Origin: Ischnura elegans
Lineage: Eukaryota > Arthropoda > Insecta > Odonata > Coenagrionidae
Assembly: GCF_921293095.1 (NCBI RefSeq)
Contig: NC_060247.1
Coordinates: 109,821,111-109,885,110, forward strand
DNA: 64,000 nucleotides
Direction: 5' to 3'
The position numbers and the translations under genes were made by a program. A model generated the notes under the pieces. The model ran no database searches and was not told the DNA's origin. It saw only the letters and a list, made by a program, of their open reading frames with translations. Positions 2,998 through 62,230 of this stretch are shown in pieces (position 1 is the first letter of the stretch; each line of letters begins with the position of its first letter).

Positions 2998-3124
2998 TCA
3001 ATAATTTTTGTCACACGAATCCAAACTGCTCATTTGGGACTTCATCCTCGACACATGAGTTTTGACTTTCGGTGAACACGATTCTCCCTCTCCCTCTGAA
3101 CATTGGAAAAATTCAGCTACATTC
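2998..3124 (-). CDS. G4 exon 6 (terminal)
   Basis: 127 nt after TTTTTTAG; encodes NVAEFFQCSEGEGESCSPKV and ends SLDSCDKNY with stop TGA at 3000-2998. Three Cys aligned with the other genes; the family has a C-x7-C ... C ending here. Confidence 0.75.
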
Positions 3125-6100
3125 CTAAAAAATAATTTGGGATGAATAAATAACTATGTGCACGCATCAATAAAGTACATAAATAATAGACATAAATTTA
3201 CATGAGCGAAAAAATTAATATTTATAATAATATTTTTTTTATTCGGGGAAATTCAGGAAATGATAAATAAGGCATTAGGACAACAATGAGATTAAATGAG
3301 CTTCTATTGCGATAGAAGCTAATTAGGTCAAGTATCTTCAACTGAAACAAAGCAGTAGAAAAGGAACCATTACATATTAGTCGTATTAGATACTTTTTTT
3401 GCTGTAGAGAAAAACTTGACTATCTTCATCATAAATTTTTACCATATTAAATGGTGAACTGATGCTACCGACTGCGTCATTTTTAGAACGGGGAAAGTTA
3501 CACTGAGTTTTCTGTTTTTTCACTTACTGGCACACGTTATCCTTGGTGAAAGGATCATTTTCTTCTTCTTCCGAGTCACACAAAGCCAAAATATTCAGAT
3601 CATCCATGAATGACAGTTTGGTTTTACATTTTTTCCACATTCCCCTAAAACATTCCTTGTCCTCTTCTTGTACTGAGTTTTAAACAAAAGAAATGTAAAG
3701 CGGTTAGGATTCATAAAACATTTCTCGATATCTTCTTATCAATGAAAACAATGGAAGTGGACAAAATATTACCATTCATCATATCACCATCATTTTCACA
3801 TAGTGTGATCAAAGTGGTTTCCAACATCTCTGCTATGAGAGGAACCATATCTATTGATTTATTTGAGATGTTCCGTAAAGATTCGGCGTCGTTCCTCATG
3901 CATTGAGTGAGCAAATCTTGCTTTCTGTGAAGATAGAGGAAATGTCAAAGGCATAACTCCGCTACAACAAAAATGAAAATACTTATAAAAGTTACAGTCA
4001 GTGGTATGCCCGATTGTAATCACCGGATAATTAATGGGTATTGATTAGAATAGATTAGATTTATGGCTATTAAAATGGATGTAATACTTACCACGGAATT
4101 TATTACTCATTTTTAGGCAGGAATAATTATATTGGTATTTATGTGGTAAAGTGCGAAAAATCTTTAACTTAAAAAAAAATTAACTTTCTTTTTTGATGTA
4201 TCATCTACTCTATAAAACTCCCTTTCATAGACAAAATTTAGGAGCCAAAGTTGAAAACATTGGCATAAAAATGCGATAAGTTTATAGAAAAACTAATTTC
4301 GTTTAATTTTTCATTCGTTGGTTATAGGTATGCTTGATTTTTTCATTATAATTTATTTCCGAAAGGGATGATATTGTTTTGATTCATTTTAAGTTTATAT
4401 CACGGTAATATCCGATGGAATCGTATAAGCAATTTAGTGATACTGATAACTTGTAAATGTAATTAAATTATGCATAGATATCATTATGGAGGATAGGTAG
4501 GTATTCCAACTGGCAAAGTATGATTAAACAGTGACATAGCAAAGGAAAGGAAGAGTGACGAAAATTGTGTTTTTTTATGTTATAAATTAGCAAAAATGCG
4601 ATATTTTGGTTTATTATTGCTTGTAACAGCTGCAACATCAACCGAGCTTGATTAAAGCGATAATTTGACTTGTAAAAGTCCGAGTTTTTTTTAAAACAGT
4701 AATAATAATAATAATGCTCCTATTGTTATTGTTTTCAATTTTTTATGAATGATTTTTAATTATTATTTAGGTTATTATAATTTAAATATTTTTATTTATT
4801 AAATTTTATTATTTTTATTGTTTTTAAATCTTGGACTTCTTTAAAGACAGAACTTCTTGGAACCAGTGGTGGATTATAGCTGGCATGGTTACATGTACAC
4901 TTTTTTATTATATTTTATTCCCGAAAAGGATAATATCGTTTTTTATGTACTTTAAGTTCCCACATCATTATACGATGGAATCAAATAAGCATATTAGTGA
5001 TAGCAACAATTGATAAATGTCTAGAATAAATATATGTCTGTAAAAAAAGCCAGACACCCAAGTTTGAGGAGCTCTATCGTCCAAACGAGGCAATCAATTT
5101 CAATGCAACAAAAAGCATACAAAAGAAAATTTATTTCTACCTTGGATCATTAACTAATAAAAAATTCCTTCTCAAAGTATTTCCTGTACTTAATTATTTC
5201 TAAAAAAAGTACCCGGTCTTTACGCGTATAATTAAGTTCCCCAACTTTTTGGAAGTTTTCGTTCCAATAACTTGGAATTGTGATATAAGAAGCCATATCG
5301 ATAGTGACCATAATTTAGTTATGATGAAATGCCACCTTAAATTTAAAAAGTTGAAGAAAGCCGTGGAAAACATATGGCAGGTTGAAATATTGAGGGAGGT
5401 TCAGGATCAACTGGCTTTTAAAGAGGCTGTAGAAAATAAAATAGGGGAGGATACGACCGACAAACCAATGGAAGAGAGTTGGAAAACTATTAGAAGTGGT
5501 CTGCAGGCGGCAGCTGAGGAAGTTCTTAGTAGAAGAAGAGTCGTTATGAAAAAACCATGTATCACGCAGGAAGTATTAGATCTCATTGAAGAAAGAAGAA
5601 AATACATGGCTGCGAAAACAGAGGAAGGACAGAATCGTTACAAGAGGATAAGGAACGAAATATGTCGTAAAGCGCGGAAGGCTAGATAAACGTGGATGAA
5701 AAGCATTTGCGAAGACGTGCAAAACAATCTTAAACATGGGAAAGTAGAGGCCGCATATAGGATAGTGAGGAACCACTTTAAGGAAAGGGGCGTAAGATGT
5801 AATACCCTAAGGGACACAATCGGAGAACTATTGATTGAAAACGAAGAAAAAGAGAAGAGATGGAAGGAATATCTGGAAGATTTGTACAAAGGAAGTCACC
5901 TCAGAACGAATGCTATCGAAAACGAGAGGGAAGTGGATACCGATGACATGGTAGCCCCAATTTTAAGATCGGAATTTGATGCGGCTGTAAGAGACCTCAG
6001 GATAAATAAAGCGTCTGGCATTGATGACATTCCTGCAGAGCTAATTAAATATTCAGGAGAGAAGACGTTGAACCAGCTATACAAAAAAAAGCATTAGTGA

Positions 6101-9100
6101 AATGTATACGACAGGTGAGATACCAAAGGATTTCGAGAGGAACATTATAATCCCTATTCCTAAGAAGAAAAGAGCGGAGAAGTGCGAAGATTTTAGGACC
6201 ATAAGCCTTACTACACATGCGTCGAAGATACTGACAAGGATCATCTATAGAAGAATAGAACGAAGAGCAGAAGAGTTCTTGGATGAGGACCAATTTGGAT
6301 TCAGAAAAAACAAAGGCATAAGGGAACCAATATTGGCCCTAAGACTGCTCATAGAGAAGAGAGTGGAAATGAACAAGCCAATATTCGTTGCGTTTGTGGA
6401 CTTAGAGAAAGCATTTGACAACGTGGATTGGAGCACGATGCCTGGAATCCTAAAAGAAAATGGGGTTCTTTATAATGACAGAAGAATCATCTACAGTTTA
6501 TACAAAACCAAGTAGCCGTGATAAAATCAGGGCCCAGCTGTGAAGAAGCAAGAATTAAGAAAGGGGTGTGACAAGGCTGTACATTGTCACCCGTAATTTT
6601 CAACGTTTACATTGAGAAAGCTATTAATGAAATCAAAGAAAAGGAATTGGGAGTGAATATCCATGGAGAAAAAATTAGCATGCTAAGATTTTCCGATGAC
6701 ATAGCCGTTATAGCAGAAACAGAGAAGGATTTGAAAAATATTCTGGTTAATATGGGTAGGGTAATGAGTAGATATCAACTGAAAATAAGCACGAAGAAAA
6801 ATAAGATCTTATTATGCAGCAGAAGAGAAGAAGTCAAGACCAACATTAAGATAGGGAGGCAAAAACTGATAGAAGTGGATGAATTCAGTTATTTGGGAAG
6901 CAAGATAACTAGTGACGGGAGAAGCAAGAAAGAAATTATCAGCAGAATAGCCCAGGCAAAGGGAGCATTCCACCAAAAGAGAGACCTGCTTACAGCGGGA
7001 AACTTAAATATGGTAGTAAAGAAACAATTCATAAGAACCTACATCTGGAGTATGCTCCTATACGGAAGTGAGGCATGGACAATGACCGCAGCGGAGAAAG
7101 CAAGGATAGAGACCTTTCAAATGTGGTGCTACAGAAGAATGATGAAAATCAAATGGATGGACCGAGTTAGTAACGAGGAAGTCCTAAGAAGGTTAGGAGA
7201 GAAGAGAAGCCTCATGAAAACCTCAATAAGAAGACGGAACAACCTTATAGGCCACATCTTGAGACATGATGGCCTGGTGAAGACAATCGTCGAATGGCAA
7301 GTGGAAGGCAAGAATGGAAAAGGAAGACCTCGGACAAAATATATGGAACAAGTAAAGAGAGATGTGAAAGAGAAGAATTACGTAGGTGTGAAAAGATTAG
7401 CTGATAGGAGAACTGAGTGGAGAGCTGCGTCAAACCAATCCTAGGATTGTTGACCAGTGATGATGAAGATGATGATGAGGTCTATTATTGACAATTTGCA
7501 GAAAACAAATTGTTTGTACCGCGAAAATTGACGGATTTGTATTAAACAACGCAAATGTCTGCTAACTTCGAAACCTCGGGTCGAGCTCCTCAAACTCGTG
7601 TGTCTTGTTTTTTTTACAGACAGTGGTAGGCAGTGTGCCGTGAGGCTAATAGAACCAGTGGCGGCTTCCCCCTCTATAGTTTTTGGAAATATTGAAAAGA
7701 TGGTTGTCTGCGATGAATGGTATTATTTAACCAGCTGAGCAAGCTTAAAGGAAAAATTATTGCTGGATACCCACCCCCCCAAAAACACTTGTGATATCAC
7801 ATCAAAACTCAGGCCTATTATCGCGAAGAGTTGTTGCATACCACCAATGCGTTAGGGAAAGTACGCACTCAAATAAGGGACCATTACCCACCCCTGCTTG
7901 GAGTAAATGAAATATTAATCATAACCTGCACATGTGCTTGCATGAGAGACATTTGGTATCGGGAAACATTCTTAAGGTCTCGTTCCTTTGCTCTTCCGTA
8001 TTCTCCCGTCGATAGCATTCGGTAGCAGCTTTCGCCCTTACCTGAAAAAAATACAAACATCAGATGGAAGCAGTGAAGCTAATTTGCGACTTTTAGTGGA
8101 ATTAGTAACGTGTCAATCTTGTTAAAAATCAAACTTATATCCATCAGATAAACATTATGAAAAGATTATGAAGAGATGTGCATGAAAATTTTGAAAGTTT
8201 TCTCAAATAACAAAGAAAATGTAAAATGAAATCACGCGCAGATTTACTATAATAGGTAGCACATTATATAGCAACGTATATTTCAAAAAATTCATTTTTC
8301 AGGTATTTCATCATTGAAATTAAGGCTAAAAATACCTTATTGCAGTAATACAAGGTCGTTTTCTGCATTATTTGACATAAGAATACGAATTTCGTATTTA
8401 TCCCATAATACACAAGTAGAGTGCGTATAAATTATTGCGTGCAACATAAGAAAATGTAAAAAAGGCAATTTGGACAGGAAATATTTTTCCTTAATACATG
8501 ACTACACTCCGGATGTAAAATCCACTCGCCTAACCCGACAGAGGGATTTTAAGTTTTGACCGATTGATTCAGTGTTCGATTTTTTATTGTTAATAGCAAG
8601 ATTAAATCAACAAATTTATATCTTTGGCATTACATAGCAACTAAAATAAACAAGTTCACTATCATAATTTCAAGTCGATTCTTCATCATCTCACTAATTC
8701 CTAACCTTATTTACAATTATTTGGGAATTATATCCATAAAAGAATAGCTTAATGAATTAAATATGTGTATAAGAAGTTCATGTGATGATTCCTCCAAACC
8801 AGGAAGAGTAACGACTCGGCTTTTTCACTTTTCTTCCACCATGTGTAATGATGAACTCCTCTTTGTTCTCAGCCTTCTTGACAGGCTTTTCCATTGAAGT
8901 CGACGACGTTTTTTCTAATATAAGTGTTGTCGTCGACATTGCTGCACCTTCATGTTGAGAAATCTCCAGCGGGTACAGACGTTGTAAGGGACGATTGATG
9001 TAGATAATCCCCTTAGCGCTATAAATCTTGATTTTTGCAGACCTCACGGTCCCATCTTTTCCACTGTAGAGCTCCTCAATTTTCCCAAGAGGCCACTCGA

Positions 9101-9318: not shown

Positions 9319-9417
<99 letters not shown>

Positions 9418-12132
9418 AGGATCATTTCCATCTTCGGTAATGGTTGTAAGTGGACGGTCATTGATGGTGGCAGCCACGCTTGCGATACAGGTGCGGAACT
9501 CATCAAATGACAACTTGCTCTTGCCGATCATCCTCTTCAGGAGGCCCTTGACACTCCTTATGAGTCGTTCCCAGAATCCACCCCACCATGGTGCTGCTTC
9601 ACAGAATCCACAAGAATGTCGTTGGGGAGCGGGACTGGCTACTAGACCTGCTGCTGTAGGAATATCATCTTCCTTCTTGGACTTCCAGTTTCCCTTTTTG
9701 TCCTTCCTCCTTTCGTAGATTGAGAGGTAACAGGTTCACTGGAGTTGAATCCTGCTTTAGCCAGGTCGGTCTGCTGGACACTTCGTACCTCCACTCTCAT
9801 AAATTCCATTAGCGCCTTGAGTTGGTTGCCTTCAATTGTGCTAAATGAGCTTCTATGCCAAGCACGAAGAATTTCTTCACTAAGGCCTGACTCCACTAGT
9901 GGGAAGATAAACGTCTCCGGATTCACTTTCCCTAACTCCAAAGCTTCCAGTGATCGCAGATGAGAACTGAGTTTGAAGTAGTATGACGAAAGGGTCATTT
10001 CTTCCTTTCCATTTGTATTCGTGATGACCAAATTCAAGAGCTCTCGAATGTAAACTTGTAGCAACAAATCTTTCCTTCCGAAACGTTATTTTAAGGCCCT
10101 TCTGACATTGGGGTAGTTTTTAGTATCGGCTGGATATCTTTCCCTAAACTCCGTAGTTTCTGTCCCCTTCTCCATAGCCTGTGATAGATACTCCACCTTA
10201 TCTGAATCCGCGAGTGGCTCGTCGTCATGAATATTTCGGAAATGAGACCACCATCCAAGCCATGACTTCAACTTCCCGTCAAACTTCTGGAGCTCAATCT
10301 TGGGGAGTTTGAAGCTTCTTTTGCTAACTGATCCTGCGTTACTAATGTTGTCCATTTCCGTTAAGGTCGTTGCTGAAGGCTGGATAGGATTGATTATACT
10401 CTCACACTTCCGTTGAACTACGGTGAATCGTCTTCGTAAATTCATTACTACTTGCATTTCATCTGCCAAGGCTTCTTCGGATGCTTCTGATTCCTCTAAT
10501 TCCTTAAGGATGGTGTGGCATATCTCCTCCCATTCCCTCACAACGTCGTTCATCAGGGTGAGCTCGACTTCCAAGGCAAGATGATCAGGTTCTTTATCCT
10601 TGAGGGCAAGGAGCTTCTCGATGTCGGTCATCAACCTAGTAAGCTGTATCTTCAACGCGTTCCTTCCTCTAATAAGCTTCTACATTTATTTAGCGGCAAC
10701 TGCGCACTCTTGCGACCGGGATACTTAATTATACGGCGCACAATAATAATCCGTTGATATCTGGAGCCACACTGGAATGACGCTGCTGTTCACTCCATTT
10801 CAGATGGGGAATTTAACCACGGTGAATGACACTCAAAGGGGTGCGTGACCCTTATGTTTAACGTCTTCATCGTATGTATATTCTCCCACACTCTGGCTGC
10901 ACACTTGAACGTTGACGATTGGCCACTTCAGGTACTTATCACGAAAAAACGCTCTGATCACTGAATCTCGATGGGACCTCCAAAAATGTAAAATCCACTC
11001 GCCTACCCGACAGAGGGATTTAAAGTTTTGACCGATTGATTCAGTGTTCCATTTTTATTGTTAATAGCAAGATTATATCAACAAATTTATATCCATGAAA
11101 TTACATAGCAACGAAAATAAACAAGTTCACATTCATAATTTCAAGTTGATTCTTCACCGGATATTAGCGATCAAACTTATACATTGCCGATCTCAGCAGT
11201 TGATCAGTATATAGTAGAGATCGAGAGTTTAACGCATCACGCTTTATCAGTCGGCGAAAATTTAGAGGACGCCTCACTAAGAGGAAATTTAAGTCTTATT
11301 TATAAAAATAAACTAGACGAAGGCTACTCTAACATTACTACTGCACTGAGAATGTTAGCCTATTCTTTACGAAAGGCGCCAAGAGGACCACGGCTTAACG
11401 TCCCATCCGACGGACGGAATGTTGCGCTTGAAAAGTCTTCCGCGTATAATTCAAGCATGGATCGGGCAGTCCCTGAAAATTCTCTTTCACCGCCGGGATT
11501 TGAACCCGAGCCCACGGGGTGGGAAGCAAACACTCTAGCCACCACACCAACCCGATCTCCCTAATACTTTACATTCTTGTGGTGGGAGGAGTGAGAGAGG
11601 GGAAGTAAACGGATCCCCCTCCCCTGACAAAACTCCTACTTCCGGCCCTGAGTGTGGGAACAACCACTATGGGGACCTCTATGGGACCTCTATGGGAACA
11701 ACCCATTCGGAGAACTCACATCAATCTCCATTTTGCATTTGAGGAGTTGTGGGCTCATTGTAGGTACCGGTATCGGATCAGAGATGACAATAGCTGCAAA
11801 CGTAATGCAAGTACCTGTAAGGTAAAAAACAATGAAAGCAAATGGGGGCGAAAAAGAGTCTTGACAATTAGATCAAGAATGTTGCACAAAGGCAATTTTT
11901 CAATACAGAGCGGCTACAATAGAAAAGTTTTGTCAGAAGGTAGTATCCGATTTCCATATACAATAGTAAGATTTAATTTAATAGAAGATGTTACCAGCCA
12001 AATATTGAATTCATTGAACTTGCTTGTGTCGAATGCATGGTCGTTTTGCGTGAGAAGTGGGTTAAAAAGAAAAGAAATTTCAACAGAGCACTTACCTCCC
12101 ATTATACTACATCGATCTTTTTGCTGATGCAT
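2998..12132 (-). CDS. G4: secreted cysteine-rich protein, DUF1397 / 27 kDa hemolymph protein-like (6 exons)
   Basis: Exons in transcription order: 12132-12096, 11814-11720, 8041-7926, 3924-3773, 3672-3528, 3124-2998. The joins keep frame (phases 1,0,2,1,2) and give 223 residues. Exon 2 carries a hydrophobic signal core (CITFAAIVIS) followed by DPIPVP. The mature part has 14 cysteines: one in exon 2, CxxCxxxC-R in exon 3, two in exon 4, four in exon 5, three in exon 6. Sequons: RNET in exon 3, NIS and NKS in exon 4. Family knowledge: DUF1397 proteins are secreted insect hemolymph proteins of similar length and cysteine layout, of uncertain function; the assignment here is by pattern, without a search. 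Oddities: the exon 3 donor is GTTATG where G3 has GTAATG; intron 2 holds a BEL/Pao element and intron 3 an RTE LINE. A TTTATT (AATAAA on the minus strand) at 2766-2771 could be the poly(A) signal. Confidence 0.72.
3528..3672 (-). CDS. G4 exon 5
   Basis: 145 nt, acceptor CTCAG, donor CA|GTAAGT. Encodes an acidic stretch, then CFRGMWKKC, ALCDSEEEE and a last Cys before the split Gln. Two codons shorter than the G3 copy in the acidic run. Intron to exon 4 is only 100 nt. Confidence 0.77.
3773..3924 (-). CDS. G4 exon 4
   Basis: 152 nt after CTTCACAG; donor G|GTAATA. Encodes KQDLLTQCMRNDAESLRNIS and on to the motif CENDGDMMN. Two Cys (exon residues 8 and 42), sequons NIS and NKS. Differs from the G3 copy at four residues. 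Confidence 0.77.
3925..5030. other. G4 intron 3, AT-rich part
   Basis: Long runs of A/T and a short taataa run at 4701-4714. Aligns with 23479-24560 in G3. No coding signal. Confidence 0.5.
5033..5240 (-). repeat. Short dispersed repeat
   Basis: Reverse complement matches 15450-15677 closely (words gagctcctcaaact and ttttttacagac). Partial copies at 7555-7624 (plus orientation, as 15450-15677) and 24565-24650 (minus orientation). Class unknown. Confidence 0.5.
5249..7480 (+). mobile_element. RTE-type LINE, 5'-truncated, inactivated
   Basis: Reverse transcriptase motifs in order: KASGIDDIPAELIKY, IIPIPKKKRAEKCEDFRTIS, DEDQFGFRKNKGIRE, FVDLEKAFDNVDW, LSPVIFNVYIEKAI, LRFSDDIAVIAET (catalytic box FSDD instead of FADD), then YGSEAWTM and FQMWCYRRMMKIKWMDRVSN. 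The element ends in a TGATGA-type trinucleotide tail at 7457-7480, typical of RTE elements. Damage: in-frame stop near 5687, frameshifts near 6090 (A-run) and 6510, and a stop near 6568. No endonuclease domain is seen. It lies in G4 intron 3 and has no counterpart in G3. Confidence 0.85.
7926..8041 (-). CDS. G4 exon 3 (CxxCxxxC-R module)
   Basis: 116 nt after a TTTTTTTCAG acceptor. 38 codons plus two bases; Cys at exon residues 9, 31, 34 and 38, and an N-E-T sequon. The donor is AG|GTTATG, with an unusual T at +3 of the intron; splicing may be weak. Confidence 0.72.
8042..8508. other. G4 intron 2, part nearest exon 3
   Basis: AT-rich; aligns with 24849-25525 of G3 apart from the 202-bp foldback found only there. 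No coding signal. Confidence 0.5.
8514..8685 (-). repeat. BEL/Pao 3' LTR
   Basis: 172 bp; begins tgtaaaatccactcgcc on the plus strand and ends gattcttca. Differs from the other LTR at a modest number of bases and small indels. Confidence 0.88.
9319..9416. repeat. (GA)n microsatellite
   Basis: About 48 GA units with one interruption, inside the integrase remnant of the BEL/Pao element; read through it gives a Ser-Leu repeat. Confidence 0.95.
10965..10982 (-). other. Primer binding site, probably tRNA-Gln
   Basis: Minus strand reads TGGAGGTCCCATCGAGAT, four bases inside the 5' LTR. It matches the complement of an animal tRNA-Gln 3' end, from memory, with one mismatch. Confidence 0.55.
10987..11156 (-). 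repeat. BEL/Pao 5' LTR
   Basis: 170 bp, followed on the minus strand by a primer binding site. Same ends as the 3' LTR. Confidence 0.88.
11375..11568 (-). mobile_element. tRNA-derived SINE, family 2 (unit I)
   Basis: Minus strand carries an A-box-like TGGTGGCTAGAG and a perfect-looking B box GGTTCAAATCC. The matching copy at 28085-28282 sits in the same intron of G3, so it was present before the duplication. Confidence 0.65.
11720..11814 (-). CDS. G4 exon 2 (signal peptide core)
   Basis: Acceptor TTACAG at 11820-11815, donor GAT|GTGAGT. 95 nt, phase 1 in and phase 0 out. Encodes TCITFAAIVIS, then DPIPVPTMSPQLLKCKMEID with the first conserved mature cysteine. Aligns base for base with 28400-28494 of G3. 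Confidence 0.72.
12096..12132 (-). CDS. G4 exon 1 (start codon)
   Basis: ATG at 12132-12130, then 12 codons and one base before a consensus donor (G|GTAAGT). Phase 1 matches exon 2, the junction codon being GGT (Gly). A second in-frame ATG at 12102-12100 would give a 14-residue leader starting MGGTCITFAA; the first ATG gives a 24-residue leader with K and R in the n-region. A TATA-like GTTATAAG (12146-12139) lies only about 10 nt upstream of the first ATG, which slightly favours the second start. The partner exon in G3 was not found. Confidence 0.5.
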
Positions 12133-14954: not shown

Positions 14955-15275
14955 GTATTACTTACCGAGAATGGCTAGTAGACTCAGTTTCGTCATCCTT
15001 CCTTGTGGGTGTAGCATTGTCACAGCATGTGCACCTCAAGTGTGTCTTGCAGATAGGGGATGGATCCAAGAAAGCAGGCACAATTTATTTCTCGTTCAAC
15101 GACGTTCAATACGAGTATTCAGCGATAACACTCGACTACGCCATAATTTTGGACTTGACCCAGCGGGCAGACACTATTTTATTCTCGTTCTCCGACGTTC
15201 CATGCATGTGACTGATAACAAACAACGGCTAAATGATTCAGGTCGCGGCCCTTAGGACTCGAGGAAAGCAAATTA
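14955..15275 (+). repeat. Dispersed repeat R, copy 2
   Basis: Shares gtattacttaccgagaatgg, tcgttcaacgacgttcaata and ctcgaggaaagcaaa with the other copies. Part of the longer block 14460-15310 that recurs at 29500-30790. Confidence 0.6.
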
Positions 15276-22537: not shown

Positions 22538-22664
22538 TCAAAAATATTTGGCACACGAATCCAAGCCGCTTATTCGGGACTTCATCCTCGACACACGAGT
22601 CTTGACTTTCGGTGAACACGATTCTCCCTCTCCCTCTGAACATTGGAAAAATTCAGCTACATTC
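22538..22664 (-). CDS. G3 exon 6 (terminal)
   Basis: 127 nt; starts NVAEFFQCSEGEGESCSPKV and ends GLDSCAKYF, stop TGA at 22540-22538. Same length and cysteines as G4. Confidence 0.76.
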
Positions 22665-33946: not shown

Positions 33947-34076
33947 TTATGCGAGATATTCACCGCATGTTTCTGAATTTAAGAGCAGGGAGGTGGTAGT
34001 GGCATGAGTGTTTTTGACAGCGTCAGAGCAGGAATCAGCAGCCGTTTCTGTGCATTTTAAGTACTCTAAAAGTGTC
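33947..34076 (-). CDS. G2 exon 6 (terminal)
   Basis: 130 nt after AAAACAG; encodes TLLEYLKCTETAADSCSDAV and ends SETCGEYLA, stop TAA at 33949-33947. One codon longer than in G3 and G4. Confidence 0.73.
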
Positions 34077-43000: not shown

Positions 43001-44959
43001 TCCCCAGGGCGCCACCCCGCACCGCGGCACCGCTGAGGTACTTACGTCCCGCACCACTTACTAGAGACTTCCCCTCAACCCCCTCCCCGCCCTCGGCAAA
43101 GACTTCGCTCGCACTGCCAAGATCTAGCCTCTGAAGAAATGTGCTTACCTTAGAAAAAATTTAATTGCCATAACAATACTTCCAATCCAAGAGATCAATT
43201 TATTTTCACTCTGTCCATGAATTTCGGTACATTAACCAAAATAAAATACATTTTCATAGTATTTCTAATTATTCTGACACTGTTAGGAGCGGAGAACCAC
43301 ACCTTTTACTTGCCTCTTGAACATATTGAAATCTATTCCACCAATAACTGCATTTCGTTCTCCTCTTCATTTGCGTAAGAATTTTATTTCTTCAGCCCTA
43401 GCTCAATTATCCGAGAGATTAACTGCACTTTCCTCCTCGTGCGTCAAAAATTCAATGATAATGCTCCTTGCAATTTCAAACAAATAATCAAGTTTTGTTA
43501 CGAAAGATTCTCTTCTCTTCATCTCTACTGTAGTTCGCGCTCTCTTTATGTCGTTGCACGTTCATCCATTCTTTGCGTCATTTTTCTAACTTTTCAATCG
43601 CCTTATTTATCATAATAACAAGAATTCTAGTTTTGTACCTTGATTGAGACGCATTTCTCACGGTTTTTCTCGCACTAGGTCTTACAAATTTCGAACCCAT
43701 TAGGTGATAGAAAAAACACACAATACTTATCTCACTCTAGGTAAATTTGAGCCGAGTATTTCTTCACTTTCTTTTCCAACCAGTTCAATGCCTGGATTTA
43801 GTCTTGATTACATACCATTCCTTGTTGGTTTATTCTTAAAATGAACGTCACGTTCATGATTAAGTATTTATTTCACCAATTTTTTCCTTAGATCCTAAAA
43901 ACTTAGCACATTCCATCCTTTGCACACTATACACAGTAACTGTTTCTCCACAGTCATCTACATCCGTGAACTGGCTACCTCGTTTCGTCTTCCTTGCATA
44001 TTTCTATCTACTGTTGGAGCCCTGGATGCCCTGCGCTTTCCCTTCATTCCTTTATAATTCATAGACACAATTGTATCACAAGCTTATAATATTTTGTACA
44101 TAAAGAGCACTTTGGAACAAAGCCTGCTGGAATGGTTCGCGGCCGTATGGCGGCAAAAAATCAAGGTTTAATGGGTTGGTACCCAGTACATGGGTCGGCG
44201 TTGAAGGGTTAAAATTGACATTCTAGGCTTTAACAACATTAATCATGATACAAGAGGAACAACCTATTCAATACTGCACCACTAGCATGTAAATCTTGCC
44301 ATCAGGAGCAGTCTTTGCCGAGGGAGGGGAGGGGGTTGAGGGGAAGTCTCTAGTAAGTGGTGCGGGACGTACCTCAGCAGTGCCGCGGTGCGGGGTGGCG
44401 CCCTGGGGGGATTTTCATTGCGACGGGCGATATCTCCTAAACGCTTAGAGATAGGTCAAAACAAACAGAAAATTGGCCCTTTTGGGCTTTACTTATACGT
44501 TTTACATAGGAATAGCACTTTTTTGACCCCAAAAAACTCAATTGAAGGTCCTTAGTACTTAGGGCCCTTGGGGCACGGGTTGCCGTTATTTTAAAGTAAC
44601 CAAATTTTAACACGTGAATATATAACTCATTTGGATCATTTTAAGACCAGGAAAACATAACTTTTCCCAATTCTGAAAAATAAGGGCCGGCCTAGTGTAC
44701 AGTGTACACTAACTCCATTCTTTATCACAACAATTCAATCTGTTAGGAACGGCAAATAGCTGACGAAAGTAGCATCAATTATAATGTACGTCGCAGTTAT
44801 AGCGTGAAGCCATTTTGCATGCACCGTAAAAAAGACGACCGTGTATCAACAGCAAAGATTCTATTATATTTACCTCAGAAGAATTTCGGCACCGTTCAAA
44901 TTCTAAGTCTGGACTGGGCGCTGGAGTTGCATAGCAGAGTGCTACGAAAAAGAATGCGC
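33947..44959 (-). CDS. G2: secreted cysteine-rich protein, DUF1397-like (5 recognised exons)
   Basis: Exons: 44959-44874, 39489-39374, 35072-34921, 34628-34478, 34076-33947; about 210 residues plus an unrecognised exon 1. Exon 2 gives a strong signal core (AFFFVALCYA) followed by TPAPSP. Later exons repeat the G3/G4 plan and phases with clearly diverged residues, so this is an older paralog. Fourteen cysteines align; NTT in exon 3 and NKS in exon 4 are possible glycosylation sites. Introns 2 and 3 are long (5.4 and 4.3 kb) and hold a 2-kb long-TIR element, two SINEs and a mariner-like fragment. No ATG lies in the signal frame directly upstream; the nearest near-cognate codon is TTG, behind a CAG acceptor, so the start is probably on a further upstream exon, as in G4. 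Confidence 0.7.
34478..34628 (-). CDS. G2 exon 5
   Basis: 151 nt, acceptor TTCACAG, donor CA|GTAAGT. Encodes YSHGEDGRCYKESRKSCGSH, AFCDKENTEY and a last Cys. Four Cys aligned with G3 and G4. Confidence 0.77.
34921..35072 (-). CDS. G2 exon 4
   Basis: 152 nt after TTTTCTACAG; donor G|GTAAGT. Encodes KQETFLNCFRTFTGNVKDLS, NKSRLMVPFF and FCENESLMSA. Cys at exon residues 8 and 42, NKS sequon. Confidence 0.78.
35090..35560 (+). other. GC-richer block, possible solo LTR or promoter-like repeat
   Basis: Contains ctgtataaaagatc (35309-35322) and a later tttattta. Sharply richer in G than its surroundings, inside G2 intron 3. No paired copy in the window. Confidence 0.25.
35580..37140. other. G2 intron 3, no gene
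   Basis: A short word shared with 24650-24690 (gaaacg-cgagtaagaaaatgttacctacg type) sits at 36040-36070; no other structure was recognised. Confidence 0.4.
37150..37510 (-). pseudogene. Tc1/mariner-like transposase C-terminal fragment
   Basis: Minus strand reads DGATTHWSRQVREHLNE, then TPCNFFLWRFVKDHAYVPPL and FEHRCDIVRTADGTH. The D-G-A-x-x-H-W and S/T-P-x-(D/N)-FFLW words are standard for this superfamily; the usual catalytic D of PDLxPxDF is N here, and frames shift. Truncated, without TIRs. Confidence 0.7.
37520..38490. other. G2 intron 3, no gene
   Basis: Nothing recognised beyond scattered AT-rich words; the frames at 38166-38595 run into the SINE and are not supported. Confidence 0.4.
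38496..38699 (+). mobile_element. tRNA-derived SINE, family 1, copy 1
   Basis: tRNA-like head (ctcggtggcggtggggtaaa, B box GGTTCGAATCC), body ending with the words taaaaggccgtcatgtgctg, and an (AAAT)n tail. Confidence 0.8.
38748..38939 (+). mobile_element. tRNA-derived SINE, family 1, copy 2
   Basis: Same head, with B box GGTTCGAGTCC, body and (AAAT)n tail as copy 1, about 50 bp downstream in the same orientation. Confidence 0.8.
39374..39489 (-). CDS. G2 exon 3 (CxxCxxxC-R module)
   Basis: 116 nt after CTTCCAG; donor AG|GTAATC. Encodes IDVEVLMYCVHSEFQEDKLL and ends CVHCRNFC-R. Cys positions 9, 31, 34 and 38 equal those of the other three genes. Confidence 0.76.
39585..39876. mobile_element. 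Foldback element beside G2 exon 3
   Basis: Ends cgattactaccgcatccgtt and aaccgatgcggtagtaaccg are inverted repeats. An inner palindrome is ccgccagttct ... agaactggcgg. Confidence 0.6.
39880..41220. other. G2 intron 2, no gene
   Basis: Holds a perfect 13-bp hairpin at 40241-40268 (atccacgacaacg, 2-base loop). No coding signal. Confidence 0.4.
41230..42000. repeat. Long dispersed repeat, copy 1 (Penelope-like?)
   Basis: 41446-42250 aligns with 63240-64000 in direct orientation. 41237-41290 and 41585-41640 are inverted copies of an aaacttttctcgggat ... ccgggttaatgttttta word. Confidence 0.6.
42006..42310 (-). pseudogene. CR1/L2-like LINE 3' fragment
   Basis: Minus strand gives KRDILPDG and EFVFSRTI, like REMFCRAN and LFFPRTI at 26.3 kb, and the same cgtgtggcgggaggg 3' region. 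Confidence 0.5.
42716..44694. mobile_element. Long-TIR DNA element, non-autonomous
   Basis: 1,979 bp. Terminal inverted repeats 42716-43104 and 44310-44694 start TAGGCCGGCCCTTA and match almost perfectly over 385-389 bp. Flanked by a perfect 8-bp duplication GTGTACAG (42708-42715, 44695-44702). The 1.2-kb interior has no long frame. Inserted in G2 intron 2. Confidence 0.88.
44874..44959 (-). CDS. G2 exon 2 (signal peptide core)
   Basis: 86 nt between TTTGCAG and GAG|GTAAAT, phases 1 and 0. Encodes AFFFVALCYATPAPSPDLEF then ERCRNSSE. The Cys sits five residues before the exon end, as in G3 and G4. Confidence 0.65.
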
Positions 44960-46085: not shown

Positions 46086-46086
46086 G

Positions 46087-46858: not shown

Positions 46859-47951
46859 GGCTTGCAGACTATAATGTATAGCAGAGCCATGATAACATGA
46901 GGAGGAGGATAACAACCGAACCCCACATTACGTTTTGCATAAATGGAACGTGAATTAAATCCAGATTTCGCATTAATTTTCCCGTTCGCGCCGCCGATGA
47001 CCGATTGGTACAGTAATTTCGCGCAAAGTTCTCCTACCGAATAATTTATTGATAATTTTTTCAAACGAATCTACCTTTAAAATTGCCGTATTACGAGATA
47101 AATAGAACATTTGATCTCAAAGCTTGATGGCGGATGCCCGATGCCCGATTTCAAAACAGATTTCAAAAAAGTACTAAAAACTAGCTCAGCTAATAGTGTA
47201 GTATGCAACTAGGGTATAAACGTATACTAATTAGAACGGGAAGCATTCGTTACACATCAAATAATAGTAAAAGCCAACGCAAAAGGTATTTGAAATATAG
47301 TAGCGATACATTCGTCGGAAAGGCCCCAATTAAAAGCAAGGCGGGGAAACACATCTACCCCGATGGCTAGAAATTGTATCTTTTTTTCCCAAAATCTATT
47401 TTAACACTCGTAGAAAGAATTAAAAAAAAATTATGATGCATGGTTTTAAAGTTATAAATGCTATTTGGAAATTTAAATAAAAGATACATGAAAGGCATGA
47501 AACAGTTCGGTACAAAGCAAGTTCTTCTGGCAGATTTTGAATGAAATTCTTAATATAATCGAAAACAAATAAAATTGAAACTCTTACCAAGTATGCATGG
47601 TAGAATGAAGGATACACTTCCCATAGTTGATTTGGCCTTTTCTCAGAAACTGTACAAGGAAAACACAACAAATTTTGTTAGCTCTGTATTGTTGATGGAA
47701 CTCCTGATTCGAATTTCTCAATGTCACGTCTCAGAGCACTGGATATAAGCAGTCTGCTGCGAAAATATTGTCGTCCAACACTGCAGTCGTAGTCACTGAG
47801 GTCGAAATGTCAAGACCTTAGGAGAATTTATCGTGAACGCATATCTCACTGCTGAAAAAATATGAGTAGAAAAAATCATTCCGGGGCAAGGAAGGCACGT
47901 AGCCTGAATATTGCTTCGGATGGGAGATTGGGTGGTAAGTGAAAGTCCCTT

Positions 47952-53541: not shown

Positions 53542-53668
53542 TCATACAAACTCGGAGCAGGTTGGCAAGTTTCTGAATTGGGATACAAGACTTCTTACGG
53601 CACTCTGAACATCCGAGGAGCAGGATTCGGCACCCCTCTCAGTACATTCCAGGAATCCATGGAATCCC
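53542..53668 (-). CDS. G1 exon 6 (terminal)
   Basis: 127 nt after CGTCTCAG; encodes GFHGFLECTERGAESCSSDV and ends LPTCSEFV, stop TGA at 53544-53542. The C-x7-C ... PTC ending most resembles the C terminus of DUF1397 proteins as I know them. Confidence 0.75.
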
Positions 53669-56600
53669 CTGAGACGATTAAAAGGTGAAATAGTTAAGAT
53701 CTTACACACATGTAGTGCTAATTACAGTAAAACTCTGTTCATTTTATCTTTGCGGGTGAGCTGGTGTGGCTAAAGCAAGTGGGGTGGAATTTTCTCGCCA
53801 CGTGATTTTCTCTTTGTCAATCAACAGACAGCAGGCGTGGCCTAATATTTCGGAAACATAGGCGTGGCCTCAGTCAGCCGCTCTCAGACCTTTGCCGTGT
53901 TAACACTTTGAGACCGACCGTCATCTATAGATGACGCGCCGGTCTCTGCCCAGTACCGAGCGTCATTTACAGATGATGGCAGACTGTGATCGGCAAAATT
54001 TTCGGGTCTGGGCAAAGTTAAAATTTTTATCTTCGGGCTGAAAGTGTTCATATCGTGTATCTGCTAGTGGAGCTGCGTTGCCAAACCTCACTTGTTTTCC
54101 CTGCATGTCTTTAGATATGCCTTTCACCAACGGTGCGGTATTCAGCTTAGTAGTTGACAATGTCATGGTCATTTGTGAAGGGAATAATCTCAATATCTTC
54201 CAAATGAGTAGGTACCTCGGCGCCGGTCCCAAACTACCTGTGGCCACCCATGGCTCATGCGTTTTTATTTTTCGTAACACTGAACTAACTTGGGTGTCTA
54301 TGTACATTTGGCAACGTCATGTTCGTTCCTGGTCTCTCCCTCTCTCGGTACTACCCTTCCCTCATAAGCGAAGCCCTCTCAGAGTGTTTTAGCCCACGCG
54401 AAAGCATAATGTGAACACATTAAAACAGTACATGATATGGTTGTGTTGCTCATAATGCCACCGAAACCAATAAAACTATGAAATGAATTTTAAATTTTTG
54501 CTGCCTTTGATCATTGGGTATGTTTTCTGCGTTGCTAAGTATAGAAAGGGAAGGAAATTACATTTATGGTGCTACAATTTACATAGCATAAAACTGAGAT
54601 TTCCTAACGTGAATTAAAATGTTTGAAGCATAAAAAAGATAGTTGCTATTTCATCATTTTTTACCCATAAGAAAGTAAGAAATAGAACTCTCAAGCCTTG
54701 CAAAAAATAGTGTCGTAGAATATAACGAATTAATAGGATCTATGAAAAATGAAATATCACATTTGAAAAACTACTTTTTACGTCAGTTGCATGATGAATG
54801 TGAATTTTTTTAACAAAATTAAATGCTGTGAATCATTAGAAGAAATTGTTTGATTCAAAATAAAGAAATATTTATCAAAGTTGCATCGGGAGTAATTTTT
54901 ATGAGCTTTACTTTATGAATACGTCTTCATGAGGAAACCTTTGAGTTCCGGATGTGAAAATATTGAACTATGGTTTTATTTTTATGTAAAATACCTCGAA
55001 CGACCCACAAAAAACTTACCTGCAGAGGACACCTGCATCGATTGCACTGTATTTTGGGTTTGAAGAGTCACAGAAGGCAGCTTCGTCAGCCTCACGTATG
55101 AAGTTCAAAAAAGATATGCAGGCACGCCGTTTTTTCTGGAAGCACGCACTGCTTTCCTGGTCTCCGAAAACTGAAATATTATGTGAAAATATCAGTTTAC
55201 AAAGTAGGGTAGGTAAGCGAAGAGGTTATTTTTAGTAAAGTAAATCAACATTAAATTTTTTTAATAAAGAACAACGTCTTAATCGCGAACTGGAAAGATT
55301 ACAACTTTTGTCAGTAAATGTTTGTTCAATTAACTTTGAAATAAACAAATTTGTTGTTATGCGTTCTCGTTGTAATCATTCACCTTCGTTCAAATGATCG
55401 CAGCGCCGCCATCGGATTTTTGTTGCCATTTTTTGAAGTCGTTAATTTATTTAATCTATATATATAAAAGAAAGTCGAAAATCGTGTTAGTTATTCCTCG
55501 TTCACATTACGATCGTCCGAGCCATCGTCGGAACTATCGTGCATTCACACAACGATGGTTAAAACCTGTGCTGCCCTCTGGTGCTGACATCTAAAGTGAA
55601 CGGGAAATTGACGGTTAGCAAAGCTGTTGAGGTATGCATGGACACGATATTACTGTCTTCAACGTGTATTTACCGAATAATTTTTCTTCCGCCCATATTC
55701 TTCCTTCTTAGGACAAATCCATGAAATGTCCACGAAAAAAATAGAGCTTCACGAGCATTTCGTCTTTCTCTTGTCGCTCCGTTTCCGGTCTCCCAGCGCC
55801 TAACCATCGTAAAGTGGCAACGTTCGGAACTACGTCAACTATAGTCAGAACTTGCATTCACACGGCTAGTTCGGTCAACTATCGTTAGGACGACGGCTTC
55901 GACGATCGTAATGTGAATGAGGCATTAGAACACTTAAACTCGAGAACGGCTGCACCGGTTTTCGTGACATTAGGCTCTTTGGATTCGTCTCAGCCCCGGA
56001 TAACATTTAGGACATTAAAAAATAGGAAAAGTTCACAAAAAAATTCAACTTTTTCTTAGAGATATGTTTTTAGGAATTGATTGTTAAGACGGTCAAAAAA
56101 ATAAGATTTTTTTTTCGTTTTTTACTAATGTATTGACTGATCATTTTAACAATATTAAACAAATTTAAATGTTCTAACATGTTAAAAATATTAAAGTAAT
56201 ATTAAAATAGTATTAAAATAATTGAATTAGAGGTAAGCTCAGCTCGAATTGAGTTGTCAACAAACACATAACTATTTTCGTCTGAAGATTTTCACAGCTT
56301 CTTTTATCTATGTTGGTGGTGGTTTTCGGGTATTGCTGTGTAGAAAACACATAACTACCGTGTGTGTAAACAAATCTCCAAGCAATTGTTGATTATCAGT
56401 AATTTCCGTGTACTCTGCATGAATTCAAACCTTTTGACTTTGTAATAAACGAAGACGAAGTCACCAAGTATCTATCTGAATATTTAAAGTCCTTGGACGC
56501 ACCTGGCTTATCACGGCACGATTTACAGCTAAAGGTAGGCTCTGCGTTCATGATCTTTCGAAACCTAAACCAACCAAAACTATCCAACGGAACGTGTTTG

Positions 56601-59600
56601 ATTATTAAAAAAACTGACAATGAAAGTGATTCAAGCCACTATATTCAAAGGAAAATTCAAAGATGAGGAAGTTCTCAATCCGAAGATTCCATGATCCCAA
56701 CTTATATGCCCTTTTGAGCTTAAACGTATTCAATTTCCAATTCGTGTTGCATTCGTGATATCGATTAACAAATCGTATGGTCAGTCTTTCAGTTTTTGTT
56801 CTGTTTGTTCTCATGTGTTAGTGAAAACCCATGATTTTCTTATGGTAAATAATATGTGGTATGTTTACGAGTCGGTAAACCATCCGCTGTTTTTCTTCCT
56901 TCGCTTCAAGGGCGCAGCTAGGAATTAAGGATAGGCGCAGCTAATACTGGCGGGTCTGTAGGGTATAGAAAACTCGCCAAGGTAAGCGAGAGGTGTGGGG
57001 GCCCTCCCCAGACATTTTTTAGGATAAAAGGTTCAAAATGGTAGGTTTTGCGGCTGTGTGAACAGTTAAATATTTTGTGACTCATCCGTCCTCCTAATAT
57101 TAATAACCAAATGTTTTATAAAAAGATTCTCTGAGCTTTTGGGGGGGTTTTAACCCCCAAAACCCCCCCTCGCTGCGTCCCTGCTTCGCTTCGCTATATT
57201 TATTTTGCTTCATTCGCTTTATCTTGCGCCTGATAACAAAACAAAAATTGTTGTTTATCAGAAGGCGCTTGACGCAAGACATTAAACCCGAATGTGTAGG
57301 GCTCACCGTGGTGCGTTTACGCATGCAGCACGTTTACGCAGTGCATTTTTTCCAAACAGAGATACTATAAATGGCGCGCCTAAAGTCATTTGATACGAAT
57401 GCTGCTTCATAGGGGCTTTTCTTACACTATTTTGAGCATCAGCCAAGCGTCGGTTTAGCGTTGCGTTAACCTGCCCCGTGAACGAGCCAAGTTTACGCTA
57501 CGGACTTAGACCTAAAAACATTTTTTGACGGTTAATAACACAAATAGCCAACAACTGAATGCGTATAATTTTTATGTCATAAATATTTTCTCATTTAATT
57601 TATAATAAATCAAATATAATTAAAACGATACAGCCGCTCTTTATTTATGAATGGTGCAACTAAACTATAAGTTCATTGAATGTTAGGCGGTACGAAGTTC
57701 GCCGGGTCAGCTGGTTTAATATATTTCATTTTAAATTCAGAACAAAATCGAAATTCCCTCAAAACCACAATAAAAGTTTTTTAAATATCGCATTGCGATC
57801 TAGTTCTTAGTTATTCTGAAAATTTCAGCTCGATAGGTAATCGGAAAGTGACTTGAAATTGAGTGGCAAGATTTGACCCGGACATGATGAAAAACAACAA
57901 AATGAGTTTATAAAGTCGTTAGAATATAAGCATATGAGTCATATTTTGGTGTAGATACATTACCAGAACTCAGAGTAGACTCTATCTCACAAAATGAAGT
58001 GAGTCCATCCCTTGTAAACTGAATGAGAATAGGAACCATTATTTTTGACCTGTTTGAAAGAAGCATAGCTTCTTCTGCGGCTGCTTCTATGCAATGATTA
58101 ATCTCGTCGCGTCTCCTGTGGGGATAATGGAAGGAAGAACACATTAGGTACACTTTCTGCAACAAAAAAAGTTGGGTTTTAATCAAATTTGATAGGTTTG
58201 GAAGCCTACAAAATAGAAATACTCAAAGTTAGAGGTGACCCCGGAGTGTATACTTGGCACTGATTGGAAGCATTTCGATTGGTTATCATTTAGAACGGTA
58301 GATTCGAATTGGTTAGCGACGTGATTGAATTTATTTGTACATGAAAATATTCCGAGTGGAAGCATTTGAAATATGCTGCTACCGAAGTATGATGAAGATA
58401 AGATGGATCAACCGAGTGAGTAATGAGGAAATATTAAGAAGAGTGGGAGAAAAGAGAACTCTTCCAAAAACCTCAAGGAGTAGGCGGACAGTGGCGGATA
58501 CATATGGGGGGCGCAGGGGGCGCGCGCCCCCCTTTGCGGGGCCTACCGCATTCCCTAATACTGCAGAACCACAATAACAACTTTTTTACCGTAAGATGGC
58601 AGTGTCATGTATAGGCGTAATATCAGTTTAAATAAAATTTTGTTAAACTTTGCATGTGATTTAATGTTTTGAAATTACGATAAAGGTAAAGGTAGCTCAA
58701 GATATCTTATGCGCCCCCCCCCCCCTTCAGTTATTTCTATATCCGCTACTTTAGGTAGGACAGCTTAGTTGGCCACATAATGACATATGAGGCATGATGA
58801 CCTGATGAAAAAAATCTTAGAAAGACAAGTGAAAGGGAAGAAGGCAAGGGATGTCCCCGAATGAGCTACAGAGAACAGTTTATAAAGGATGTAAAAGAGA
58901 TAGAATATAGAGATAAAAGAGAAGAAAACGAGAGGCTTAAGTTCTCCAACGTTTCTACCTGACCATAAATGGAAAATTCACAGTAGTTAGTGATTTTTAT
59001 TTACTGGATTGTGCTTTCCTAAGATTAACGACTGTAAGGATTAAGGTTGATAGGGTAACTGGTTTGGTGATGCAAAATAACGGTTTCGATTAAAATCGAA
59101 CTTCCTGTTTTAAATTTCAAGGATCGAGGAGATTTTTTTACATCTCTAATGTGTATTTTTAGTGTCTTTCGAATGTAAAATAAACATGTTTTTAAAAAAC
59201 TATACATAAAGAAAAGAACCGTCGATTTTTTTTATTAATCGATCTTCCGGTTTAAATTTCGATTTTTGTTGAAAAGTGGTGTTTACTATTTCGATTAAAA
59301 ATCGGTCGTTAGAAGAATTAATTTTGACCGACCTGTTTCCATCACTAATCTGGTTCATTTTTCAATACTTTATTGCTATGCAAGTAATTTATCCTTGGTG
59401 AGCGGCTAATTTATTGTTTTCTCCCGTTTCGGAGATTTTCCTTCCAACAATAATACAAATTATAACTAATAACTTCAGGCTTTACTTTGTGAAACCTCTC
59501 CATACTGGAAGTAAGGAAATAAAACTTTGTTAGGTTCACTATTATTTAATTATGGGCACGACCCGGGTTTCGTAACTTGGATACATCGGTAGGTGACTGA

Positions 59601-62230
59601 TCTTGCATTCATCATACATTTATATACAAAGTACACAAGTGGCAGTGAGGACATCTATCGGAAAGGAAAAGGACTGGTTGAAAGGGTGGGGGTGAGGGTT
59701 AAACACGGAATAGAATAGTGAGAGGGGGGGGGGGGGGGTAAGGGGGAAAGGGGCAGCCTTGATTTGGGACGAGAGTTTTCCCTGTGAGGATAGGTATCTG
59801 ACCAGCCAGGGGAGGGCGGGGTTAAAGTCCGGGGCGGGGTCCCCTGGCTGGTCAGATACCCTGAAGTATTCATCCAGAAACACCCTGTACACATGTAGCC
59901 AGGGTTGGGCCGATTTTCTCGTTTTAGATACGGTTGTCGGAAGAGCTGTTTGAAGGATGAAGGGAGAGGATAGGCGCCCCCCTTATTGAAGTTATTCCCA
60001 TAATTAGCTATTTCTATACGGTCCTCTATCAGCCGAGGTGAATATTTTTTTTCCGACGATGATTTCTGACGCTTGGAATTATTACGGTCTCGGAGAATGA
60101 GAACTTTATATACAAGGAATCGAACCTCTTTAGACCCGAAGACGGGAACTGGAAAACGACAGACATTTATCCATTTAATCACCACGAAAGCCGTCGTACC
60201 AATCGCTAGAAATAATAATAATTTCATTTATTTTTCGTGAGCACCTGGTCCATGAGAGAAAAAACTTAACATCACTTTTAGCAATTTCAGAATCTATAAA
60301 CGAATTAAATAAAAAAAGAATAAAAATTCAAACTAATGCACCCAGTGAGGACCGCCGTAAGTATGGGTATCATCCAATATTACAATATTGTCAACTTGAG
60401 GGAAAGATCATACTGTGCATTGATTAAACGTGAGGTGATTTTGACGATTTTCGGACCTTCTCCCTTGGTGAGATATCGCGAGATTTGGGTCGACCCCCTC
60501 CCACTTAACTCACGTTGGGTCAAAATGCGCATTTTCCGTGTGCATACGTTAATCTATGCATCATTTCGTTTGATTTATTAAAAAACAATTTTAAATAATG
60601 AATTAAAAACTTTTGGGCTATGTCGCCGCGTCAATTGTTGGGTGGCCCCCACGTTTCCCGACCGATGATGGTCGCTTTCTCAAGGGATTCTGAAGAGTTG
60701 GGAATTTCAATTCTTTTATATAGCTATCTGTGTCAGGAGGTGGGAAGTTTGAAGAGTTGGGAACTTCAATTTTAAATAAATAAAAGCAATTTAGAAAAGA
60801 AACAATGAAAAAAATATTTTCATTTAATGTTAGTTGAGAATAGTATTTAAGATTACTAATTGTAAGTTCGCATTTTCACACCGTTTCCTGCGGCAAAAAA
60901 TTACGTGTTACTTGGCTGGACTCTCCCTCTCCCTCACGTTAGATTGGGTGAGGAACGGCTTGGCCCTCTCTCCCCCGTAAATCTTTAAGGTCCATAAAGA
61001 TTGCGGCCAATAGATTGCATAGCAAAATACGTTTTTAGGCTGATAATTTTTAATGCGGGGATTCCAAAAACATTTATATGAAAGCGATACTTTTAATAGT
61101 TTCTGATGTACAGTCTGGGACGTGAAAAAATACCAATTTTCGCTCCCTTATAAGAGCGTATGTGTCCATGACATAAAAACAGTAATTTCATGAAAATTAA
61201 AGCACAAATGTGGAGTTTTTCGTCCTAACTCCACAGGAAAGGTACACGTAAAGGATGAACCGAAAGTCCCTTTACAACTGACCTTCTCATTGATTTGTTA
61301 AAAACTATATAATTTCCACTACAGCCGAAATACTGGAAACAATACCTCTAAGTTGGGACACAGCAAACAACATACCTCTTCCAACCTTCTATTTCTAGAA
61401 CAGTCACCAAGCAAAAATTAAAACCCGTCTCCATGGGGGGTAGGTATTGCTTTCAACCTCAGTAACCGTTTATACGGTGCTAATATCGGTGGCCACTCAA
61501 TTACGAGTCAATATACAATGCCATTCGCACCCCTTTATGGTCCATAGGGACATAATTGTCCCATAGAATTAAAATAACACTAATTCCCAACCCATAAAAC
61601 TATACTAACCCAACTAATACAACTAATATAACTAACCCATAAAAAAACACTAATTTTGTCAAAATTAAATCTTAACAGCGAAGTTTTCCACACAAACTCC
61701 ATCGGCTATACAAATAAGGGACACCGAAAGTTTCGTTATAATTGACCTTCTCATTGAATTGTTATAAAATATCAAATAATTCTCGCTTCGTAAACTGCAT
61801 TTCAAGTGAAAGTTCGTCACAATGTGGTGACTGCAATATCTATACGATATCACAAAAAGAATTTAAAACTAGAAGCCAATAGCCTATTCTTCAATAAGTA
61901 GAAACAATTATTACTACCCACTCATTTAATTTTGAGAGAATGTAAAAATTTGGTACACACATGTCATTTGGACCTTAAAGGGTTAAAACGCCTCACATAT
62001 TTAATGGGTGCCCCGTATTATAATCAATTCCACATTATACATTTAGCATTATCATTTCTGTCAAAGGAAGTTCGTTTCATTTTAATTTTGAGTGTTTTCT
62101 TAAATCCTACTCACCTGCACATGTTTCGGCATTTGACACACTTTGTATCGCTGTGCAATCGCCTCGTCTCGTTCATGCTCTCCTCTGAAAATAAATCTTC
62201 AATGCACTTGTTAACGGCCTCAAATTGGCT
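53542..62230 (-). CDS. G1: cysteine-rich protein, DUF1397-like, 5' partial (4 recognised exons)
   Basis: Exons: 62230-62115, 58115-57964, 55170-55020, 53668-53542; 181 residues. Lengths (116, 152, 151, 127) and phases equal those of G2-G4, and the cysteine pattern is kept. Signal-peptide exons were not recognised between 62230 and the window end; with introns of up to 5 kb elsewhere in the cluster they may lie beyond 64000. The exon 3 NET and exon 4 NRS sequons are kept. The Helitron and a LINE fragment with a MITE lie wholly within introns. It is the most diverged member, yet all donors and acceptors fit consensus and no stop interrupts it, so it is probably functional. Confidence 0.68.
53890..54000. 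other. Palindromic block in G1 intron 5, possible piggyBac-like end
   Basis: gttaacactttgagaccgac followed by tcatctatagatga and cgccggtctc. Layout like that at 27797-27884. Confidence 0.3.
54010..55010. other. G1 intron 5, remainder
   Basis: No gene recognised; the plus-strand frame 54078-54392 has no supporting motif. Confidence 0.4.
55020..55170 (-). CDS. G1 exon 5
   Basis: 151 nt after ATTTCAG; donor AG|GTAAGT. Encodes FGDQESSACFQKKRRACISF and AFCDSSNPKY, ending GVLC-R. Four Cys. Confidence 0.77.
55491..55926. mobile_element. MITE nested in the Helitron
   Basis: Ends cctcgttcacattacgatcg and cgatcgtaatgtgaatgagg are inverted. Splits the Helitron 5' region between gtgttag and aacactt. 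Possible TTA duplication. Confidence 0.65.
56390..56880 (+). pseudogene. Helitron helicase fragment
   Basis: Reads PFDFVINEDEVTKYLSEYLK, LKVGSAFMIFRNLNQPKLSN, GTCLIIKK, then after frame changes MPFELKRIQFPI and INKSYGQSFSF. The K-S-x-G-Q-S word is helicase motif VI-like (normally NKSQGQ). Confidence 0.75.
56907..57183. mobile_element. hAT-like MITE, copy B, nested in the Helitron
   Basis: Ends CAAGGGCGCAGCTAGG / CTCGCTGCGTCCCTG with a perfect 8-bp duplication CTTCGCTT (56899-56906, 57184-57191). Body aligns with 27019-27288. Confidence 0.85.
57964..58115 (-). CDS. G1 exon 4
   Basis: 152 nt after CCCCACAG; donor G|GTAATG. Encodes RRDEINHCIEAAAEEAMLLS, NRSKIMVPIL and FCEIESTLSS. Confidence 0.77.
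58340..58960 (+). pseudogene. RTE LINE C-terminal fragment, split by a MITE
   Basis: Reads VEAFEICCYRSMMKIRWINR and VSNEEILRRVGEKR before 58488 and resumes at about 58755 with LVGHIM-like and HDDLMK-like words. Same family as 5249-7480, more diverged. Lies in G1 intron 3. Confidence 0.7.
58489..58751. mobile_element. hAT-like MITE inside the LINE fragment
   Basis: Starts CAGTGGCGGATACATA and ends TATATCCGCTACTT; very C- and G-rich subterminal parts. Flanks taggcgga and taggtagg agree only in part. Confidence 0.6.
59000..62110. other. G1 intron 3, remainder, no gene
   Basis: Holds a perfect 21-bp-arm hairpin at 59789-59859 (ggtatctgaccagccagggg arm) and C- or G-runs at 59725-59738. The 190-codon minus frame 60227-59655 crosses these and is not supported. 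Confidence 0.45.
62115..62230 (-). CDS. G1 exon 3 (CxxCxxxC-R module)
   Basis: 116 nt after CTTTTCAG; donor AG|GTGAGT. Encodes SQFEAVNKCIEDLFSEESMN and ends CVKCRNMC-R. Confidence 0.75.

Follow-up and report, generated by a model that had tools for sequence, protein, structure and literature searches.

The DNA examined here raises the question of whether a series of short, repeated coding segments in the damselfly Ischnura elegans represents a set of genes and, if so, to which protein family their products belong. Odonata, the order of this species, branch near the base of the winged insects. The window, which is the whole stretch of 64,000 nt that was analyzed, covers positions 109,821,111 to 109,885,110 of contig NC_060247.1, and the array within it is probably located on chromosome 2, given as 148.00 Mb in a table of the genome paper (PMC9975421). 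The evidence below points to a tandem array of paralogs that probably encode divergent, helical, 14-cysteine relatives of the DUF1397 / 27 kDa hemolymph proteins.

An all-versus-all comparison of open segments identified families of exon-like sequences on the minus strand, with copies in each of four co-oriented genes, named genes 1 to 4 by position. Joining the segments at GT-AG sites produced four cores of 179-182 residues with 13 cysteines apiece, and the reading frames of genes 1, 2 and 3 become complete with two extra exons, the fourteenth cysteine being encoded by exon 2. Genes 1 to 3 are complete with six coding exons each and gene 4 is represented by its last four exons, giving 22 coding exons in the window (6+6+6+4), all on the minus strand, rather than the 20 counted in the first-pass annotation of this DNA. 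Gene 1 consists of exon 1 (14966..15017), which carries the start codon and the first part of a signal-like segment, exon 2 (11720..11814), which encodes the first mature cysteine, exon 3 (7926..8041), exon 4 (3773..3924), exon 5 (3528..3672) and exon 6 (2998..3124). The corresponding exons of gene 2 are located at 30371..30422, 28400..28494, 24733..24848, 23327..23478, 23073..23223 and 22538..22664, and those of gene 3 at 47588..47624 (37 coding nt), 44874..44959 (86 nt), 39374..39489, 34921..35072, 34478..34628 and 33947..34076. Gene 4 comprises exon 3 (62115..62230), exon 4 (57964..58115), exon 5 (55020..55170) and exon 6 (53542..53668), and exon 6 ends in a stop codon in every gene. Exons 3 and 4 measure 116 and 152 nt in all four genes, exon 5 is 145 nt long in gene 1 and 151 nt in the other three, and exon 6 is 130 nt long in gene 3 and 127 nt elsewhere. 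The running end phases are 1, 0, 2, 1, 2, 0 in the three complete genes, whose proteins are 223-230 residues long and begin with a hydrophobic segment. All reading frames are intact and the introns are GT-AG. This gene-by-gene comparison bears out the earlier description: four genes run in the same direction on the minus strand, and their exon lengths, phases and cysteines correspond. The limits proposed for the cluster, 2998 and 62230, are also borne out, as they coincide exactly with the outer boundaries of exon 6 in gene 1 and exon 3 in gene 4, respectively.

The cluster had been described as hidden; however, all four genes already exist as NCBI gene models. The translations of genes 1, 2 and 3 are letter-identical to LOC124154354 isoform X2 (P0002), LOC124154355 (P0001) and LOC124154356 (P0008), respectively, and the gene 4 core is contained within LOC124154358 (P0003). 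This agreement of three joined models and the containment of the fourth exclude chance and indicate that the exon models are right. All four NCBI entries are named "uncharacterized protein" and have no precomputed Pfam domain. The first two exons of gene 4 were not found in the window, where the best matches to them (81% and 93%) are the exons of gene 3 itself, and they presumably lie beyond the window end. A further exon between exons 3 and 4 was considered and rejected; scanning the short intron of gene 2 (45-260 nt, GTA/GTG donors) returned two mechanical candidates, one with a good pyrimidine tract, and no extra exon common to all four genes was present among the tblastx matches listed between genes.

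A protein search with the four cores returned seven proteins, all from Ischnura elegans. Four relatives are not encoded in the window, namely LOC124154361, LOC124154365, LOC124154366 and LOC124154354 isoform X4 (P0004), the last sharing 60-67% identity with the proteins of genes 1 and 2. The other three have the 14 cysteines in common with the window proteins and are 29-31% identical to isoform X4, with LOC124154361 differing in its longer N-terminus. As the first-pass annotation had proposed, these are 14-Cys proteins, the 14 cysteines being invariant in 8/8 I. elegans members. Sequence prediction places 3, 3, 4 and 3 N-glycosylation sequons in the four window proteins and 3-6 across all eight. 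The AlphaFold model of the gene 3 protein is all-helical (mean pLDDT 79.7, pTM 0.71), with residues 1-25 below 50.

Assignment of these proteins to DUF1397 (PF07165) was examined against the Pfam profile, for which the curated cut-off is 25.7 bits. The Pfam family that scores highest with P0004 is DUF1397 (22.0 bits, with residues 41-208 covering profile positions 28-194 of 207), and the same holds for P0001 (18.3 bits) and for the gene 2 core (20.2 bits); at E ≤ 1, DUF1397 is matched by two of the eight full-length members. The score of P0001 is close to the 17.9 bits that the same protein obtains with the vATP-synt_E model. No DUF1397 match was obtained at E ≤ 10 for the cores of genes 1, 3 and 4. 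A consensus-like sequence and six cysteine-preserving shuffles gave no DUF1397 match either. The search against PF07165 thus yields sub-threshold matches, and no scanned member reaches the cut-off, the best being P0004. The word "member" is therefore too strong for these proteins, and of the earlier assignment to the DUF1397 / 27 kDa hemolymph family it is the homology, supported by the profile-profile comparison below, that stands, but not formal membership.

For the profile-profile comparison, 25 DUF1397 proteins were aligned from 120 listed of the 208 found, the listed ones carrying PF07165. hhalign aligns the eight damselfly proteins with the 25 DUF1397 proteins along 179 collinear columns, at a score of 43.2 (E 2.6e-5, probability 74.8). 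The best control scores were 21.05 in 50 column shuffles with cysteines fixed and 20.1 in 50 full shuffles, the shuffled columns being those occupied in five or more of the eight damselfly proteins, and the reversed alignment scored 17.4. Changing the match-column rule lowers the pooled score to 38.0 (probability 58.4). Profiles built from single branches of the damselfly family score lower against DUF1397 (29.7, 21.0 and 31.6), indicating that the homology rests on the pooled profile.

The cysteines provide a second line of comparison. On the hhalign alignment that scores 38.0, ten cysteine pairs coincide, and MAFFT likewise aligns ten cysteine columns, including an N-terminal one outside the hhalign segment. 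Of the 12 cysteines invariant in the 25 aligned DUF1397 members, 11 have a counterpart in the damselfly proteins: ten by hhalign, one of which is unaligned in MAFFT, and the N-terminal one by MAFFT. Matching spacings in the damselfly and DUF1397 proteins are 8, 33 versus 34, 17, 8, 7, and 20 versus 21, and the two groups have in common an end block C-x8-C-x7-C-x20/21-C and, in most proteins, a C-RK-x6-C motif. There are also differences. The spacing between two aligned cysteines is 6-7 versus 10, and MAFFT sets that pair four columns apart; the first cysteine spacing is 13 in the damselfly proteins versus 21-25 in the 12 DUF1397 proteins compared. Three cysteines beyond the DUF1397 set are present in all eight damselfly proteins and one DUF1397 cysteine, Cys143 of P0051, has no counterpart in any of them. 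Longer DUF1397 proteins also have a C-terminal tail, which the damselfly proteins lack.

Predicted structures were compared through their helix/loop strings. The AlphaFold model of a DUF1397 protein (mean pLDDT 72.0) contains a succession of helices as in the damselfly gene 3 model, and the two models are the same in helix or loop state at 144 of the 178 positions aligned, a value reached in none of 168 circular shifts (best 136). Loop positions number 33 and 39 in the two models, and 19 of them coincide. No solved structure matches either the damselfly or the DUF1397 model with confidence. Besides the aligned cysteines and their motifs, the likeness to the 27 kDa hemolymph protein and the 27 kDa glycoprotein includes a collinear profile alignment and the same order of predicted helices.

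The main alternative is that these proteins form an odonate-specific, cysteine-rich helical family without common descent with DUF1397, in which similar cysteine spacing arose by convergence in helical bundles. The sub-threshold Pfam scores are in keeping with this idea, as are the protein searches with queries A1 (E ≤ 0.01) and A2 (E ≤ 10), which returned only I. elegans proteins with a method that needs shared exact words, and the score of P0003, P0005, P0006 and P0007 taken alone, which at 21.0 is not above the best shuffle. However, the pooled score exceeds all 100 shuffles (at most 21.1), half of which held the cysteines in place, and the alignment is collinear throughout with agreement of the predicted helices, making an unrelated family unlikely and common descent with DUF1397 the likelier reading of the sequence comparisons.

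In the favored reading, the window holds part of a tandem array of paralogs, in which every complete gene has six coding exons and encodes a small cysteine-rich protein. The N-terminal hydrophobic segment is presumably a signal peptide that would direct secretion, and the chain that follows it is predicted to fold as an all-helical bundle held by the 14 cysteines, which probably form seven disulfides. The several sequons carried by each protein may be glycosylated. The family would be a damselfly branch with 14 cysteines within the 27 kDa hemolymph protein superfamily, partly duplicated in recent times, that kept the helix order and most of the cysteines, with three gained and one lost. Should this link be real, proteins of the DUF1397 type would show more plasticity than the Pfam model does, and the extra cysteines would offer a way to see which disulfides matter in this orphan family; the damselfly database entries, uncharacterized and without a domain, give no sign of a family relationship that is distant but open to testing.

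A possible, though doubtful, function by analogy would be that of a stable circulating extracellular factor produced by blood cells or fat body and used in stress or infection. Published studies report that a 27 kDa hemolymph protein is increased in Galleria under fungal challenge (PMC4224417) and that a "27 kDa glycoprotein precursor" is a marker of a Bombyx blood cell cluster resembling oenocytoids (PMC8914287). Other studies place a DUF1397 protein in the peritrophic matrix of the mosquito midgut (PMC5865745), include DUF1397 among centipede venom families (PMC5869384), describe its recruitment in the scutigeromorph lineage (PMC6878950), and report that the salivary glands of a louse contain a 27 kDa hemolymph protein (PMC12106848). 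Since DUF1397 proteins are reported in the midgut lining and in centipede venom, kinship with this family does not imply a hemolymph role, and a general-purpose stable extracellular protein would fit all of the reported contexts.

A second alternative concerns the organization of the locus, in which one or two long transcription units, rather than four genes, would use the copies as alternative sets of exons. In NCBI, P0002 (X2) and P0004 (X4) are filed as isoforms of the single locus LOC124154354, yet the two proteins are quite different and resemble different paralogs, a pairing that reflects either two annotations merged into one or a transcription unit common to both. P0004 has no identical exon in the window, with the better pieces at 71-74% among the matches listed, and an additional copy of exon 1 is located upstream of gene 1 at 18239-18292 on the minus strand. 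This copy resembles exon 1 of genes 1 and 2, has a GC rather than a GT donor, and may serve as an alternative first exon or be a remnant. These observations lend the alternative-exon arrangement some plausibility; however, every copy in the window has separate exons 3-6 with a stop codon of its own, three also have separate exons 1-2, and genes 2-4 carry three distinct locus numbers, so that such an arrangement is very unlikely.

Within the tandem paralog array, genes 1 and 2 arose by recent duplication, with dN 0.080 and dS 0.122 by NG86 and a dS of about 0.10-0.12 across methods. The description of the family as still expanding in the first-pass annotation finds partial support in this pair and in the related proteins encoded elsewhere in the genome. 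That the array is partly decaying, with some copies drifting without function, is the least probable of the alternatives, as although the gene 1/2 NG86 ratio of 0.66 (bootstrap range 0.37-1.41) and the YN00 estimates (dN 0.086, dS 0.097) are compatible with neutrality, the frames and GT-AG introns are preserved, and when the 57 gene 1/2 changes were placed at random, just 0.0032 of 5000 trials kept every one of the 14 cysteines and were free of stop codons, suggesting that some constraint probably remains. Identity between genes 1 and 2 is uneven, at 98.1% in exon 1, 86.3% in exon 2, 84.5% in exon 3, 97.4% in exon 4 and 92.9% in exon 6, with exon 5 differing in length, as if parts of the genes had undergone conversion.

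In genes 3 and 4 the N-termini are identical at 38 of 41 residues, but the cores are only 30% identical. A segment of gene 3 intron 2 (41430..42206, minus strand) is 94% identical over 777 columns to 63229..64000 (minus strand), which lies upstream of gene 4 exon 3 and is presumably part of gene 4 intron 2; the match stops sharply at 41430 / 63229 and reaches the window end on the other side. Short pieces of the same gene 3 segment also match 26153-26335 in gene 2 intron 2. The sharp breakpoint in intron 2 together with the near-identical 5′ part (41430-42206, 44874-47624 and 63229-64000) suggests exchange of a cassette between paralogs, and the simplest reading of the sequence is that exons 1-2, encoding the putative signal peptide, were exchanged or copied between genes 3 and 4, with the break lying in intron 2. 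Insertion of a mobile element into both introns was also considered and would explain the 94% segment but not the matching exons. A more speculative proposal, which at present seems improbable, is that an old hemolymph protein was turned into a fast-turning-over array of 14-Cys, putatively secreted factors, in which the exon 1-2 cassette is swapped while the cores diverge, as in defense or venom-like families engaged in an arms race.

The introns of the array also contain sequences related to mobile elements. Gene 1 intron 3 harbors a reverse transcriptase element at 6087-7473 on the plus strand, with an RVT_1 match at 6572-7441, and an inverted relative of this element is located at 15997-17383. 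The repeat listing contains no copy of it in gene 2 intron 3, which is about 1.25 kb long. In gene 1 intron 2, the region 8781-10679 on the minus strand includes a DUF5641 match (8781-9197) and a DUF1759 match below its cut-off (10089-10679), both domains presumably being parts of BEL/Pao-type retroelements. Finally, gene 3 intron 2 contains a pair of inverted repeats (42699-43104 and 44310-44711) that are 97-98% identical and about 1.2 kb apart, perhaps representing the ends of a mobile element.
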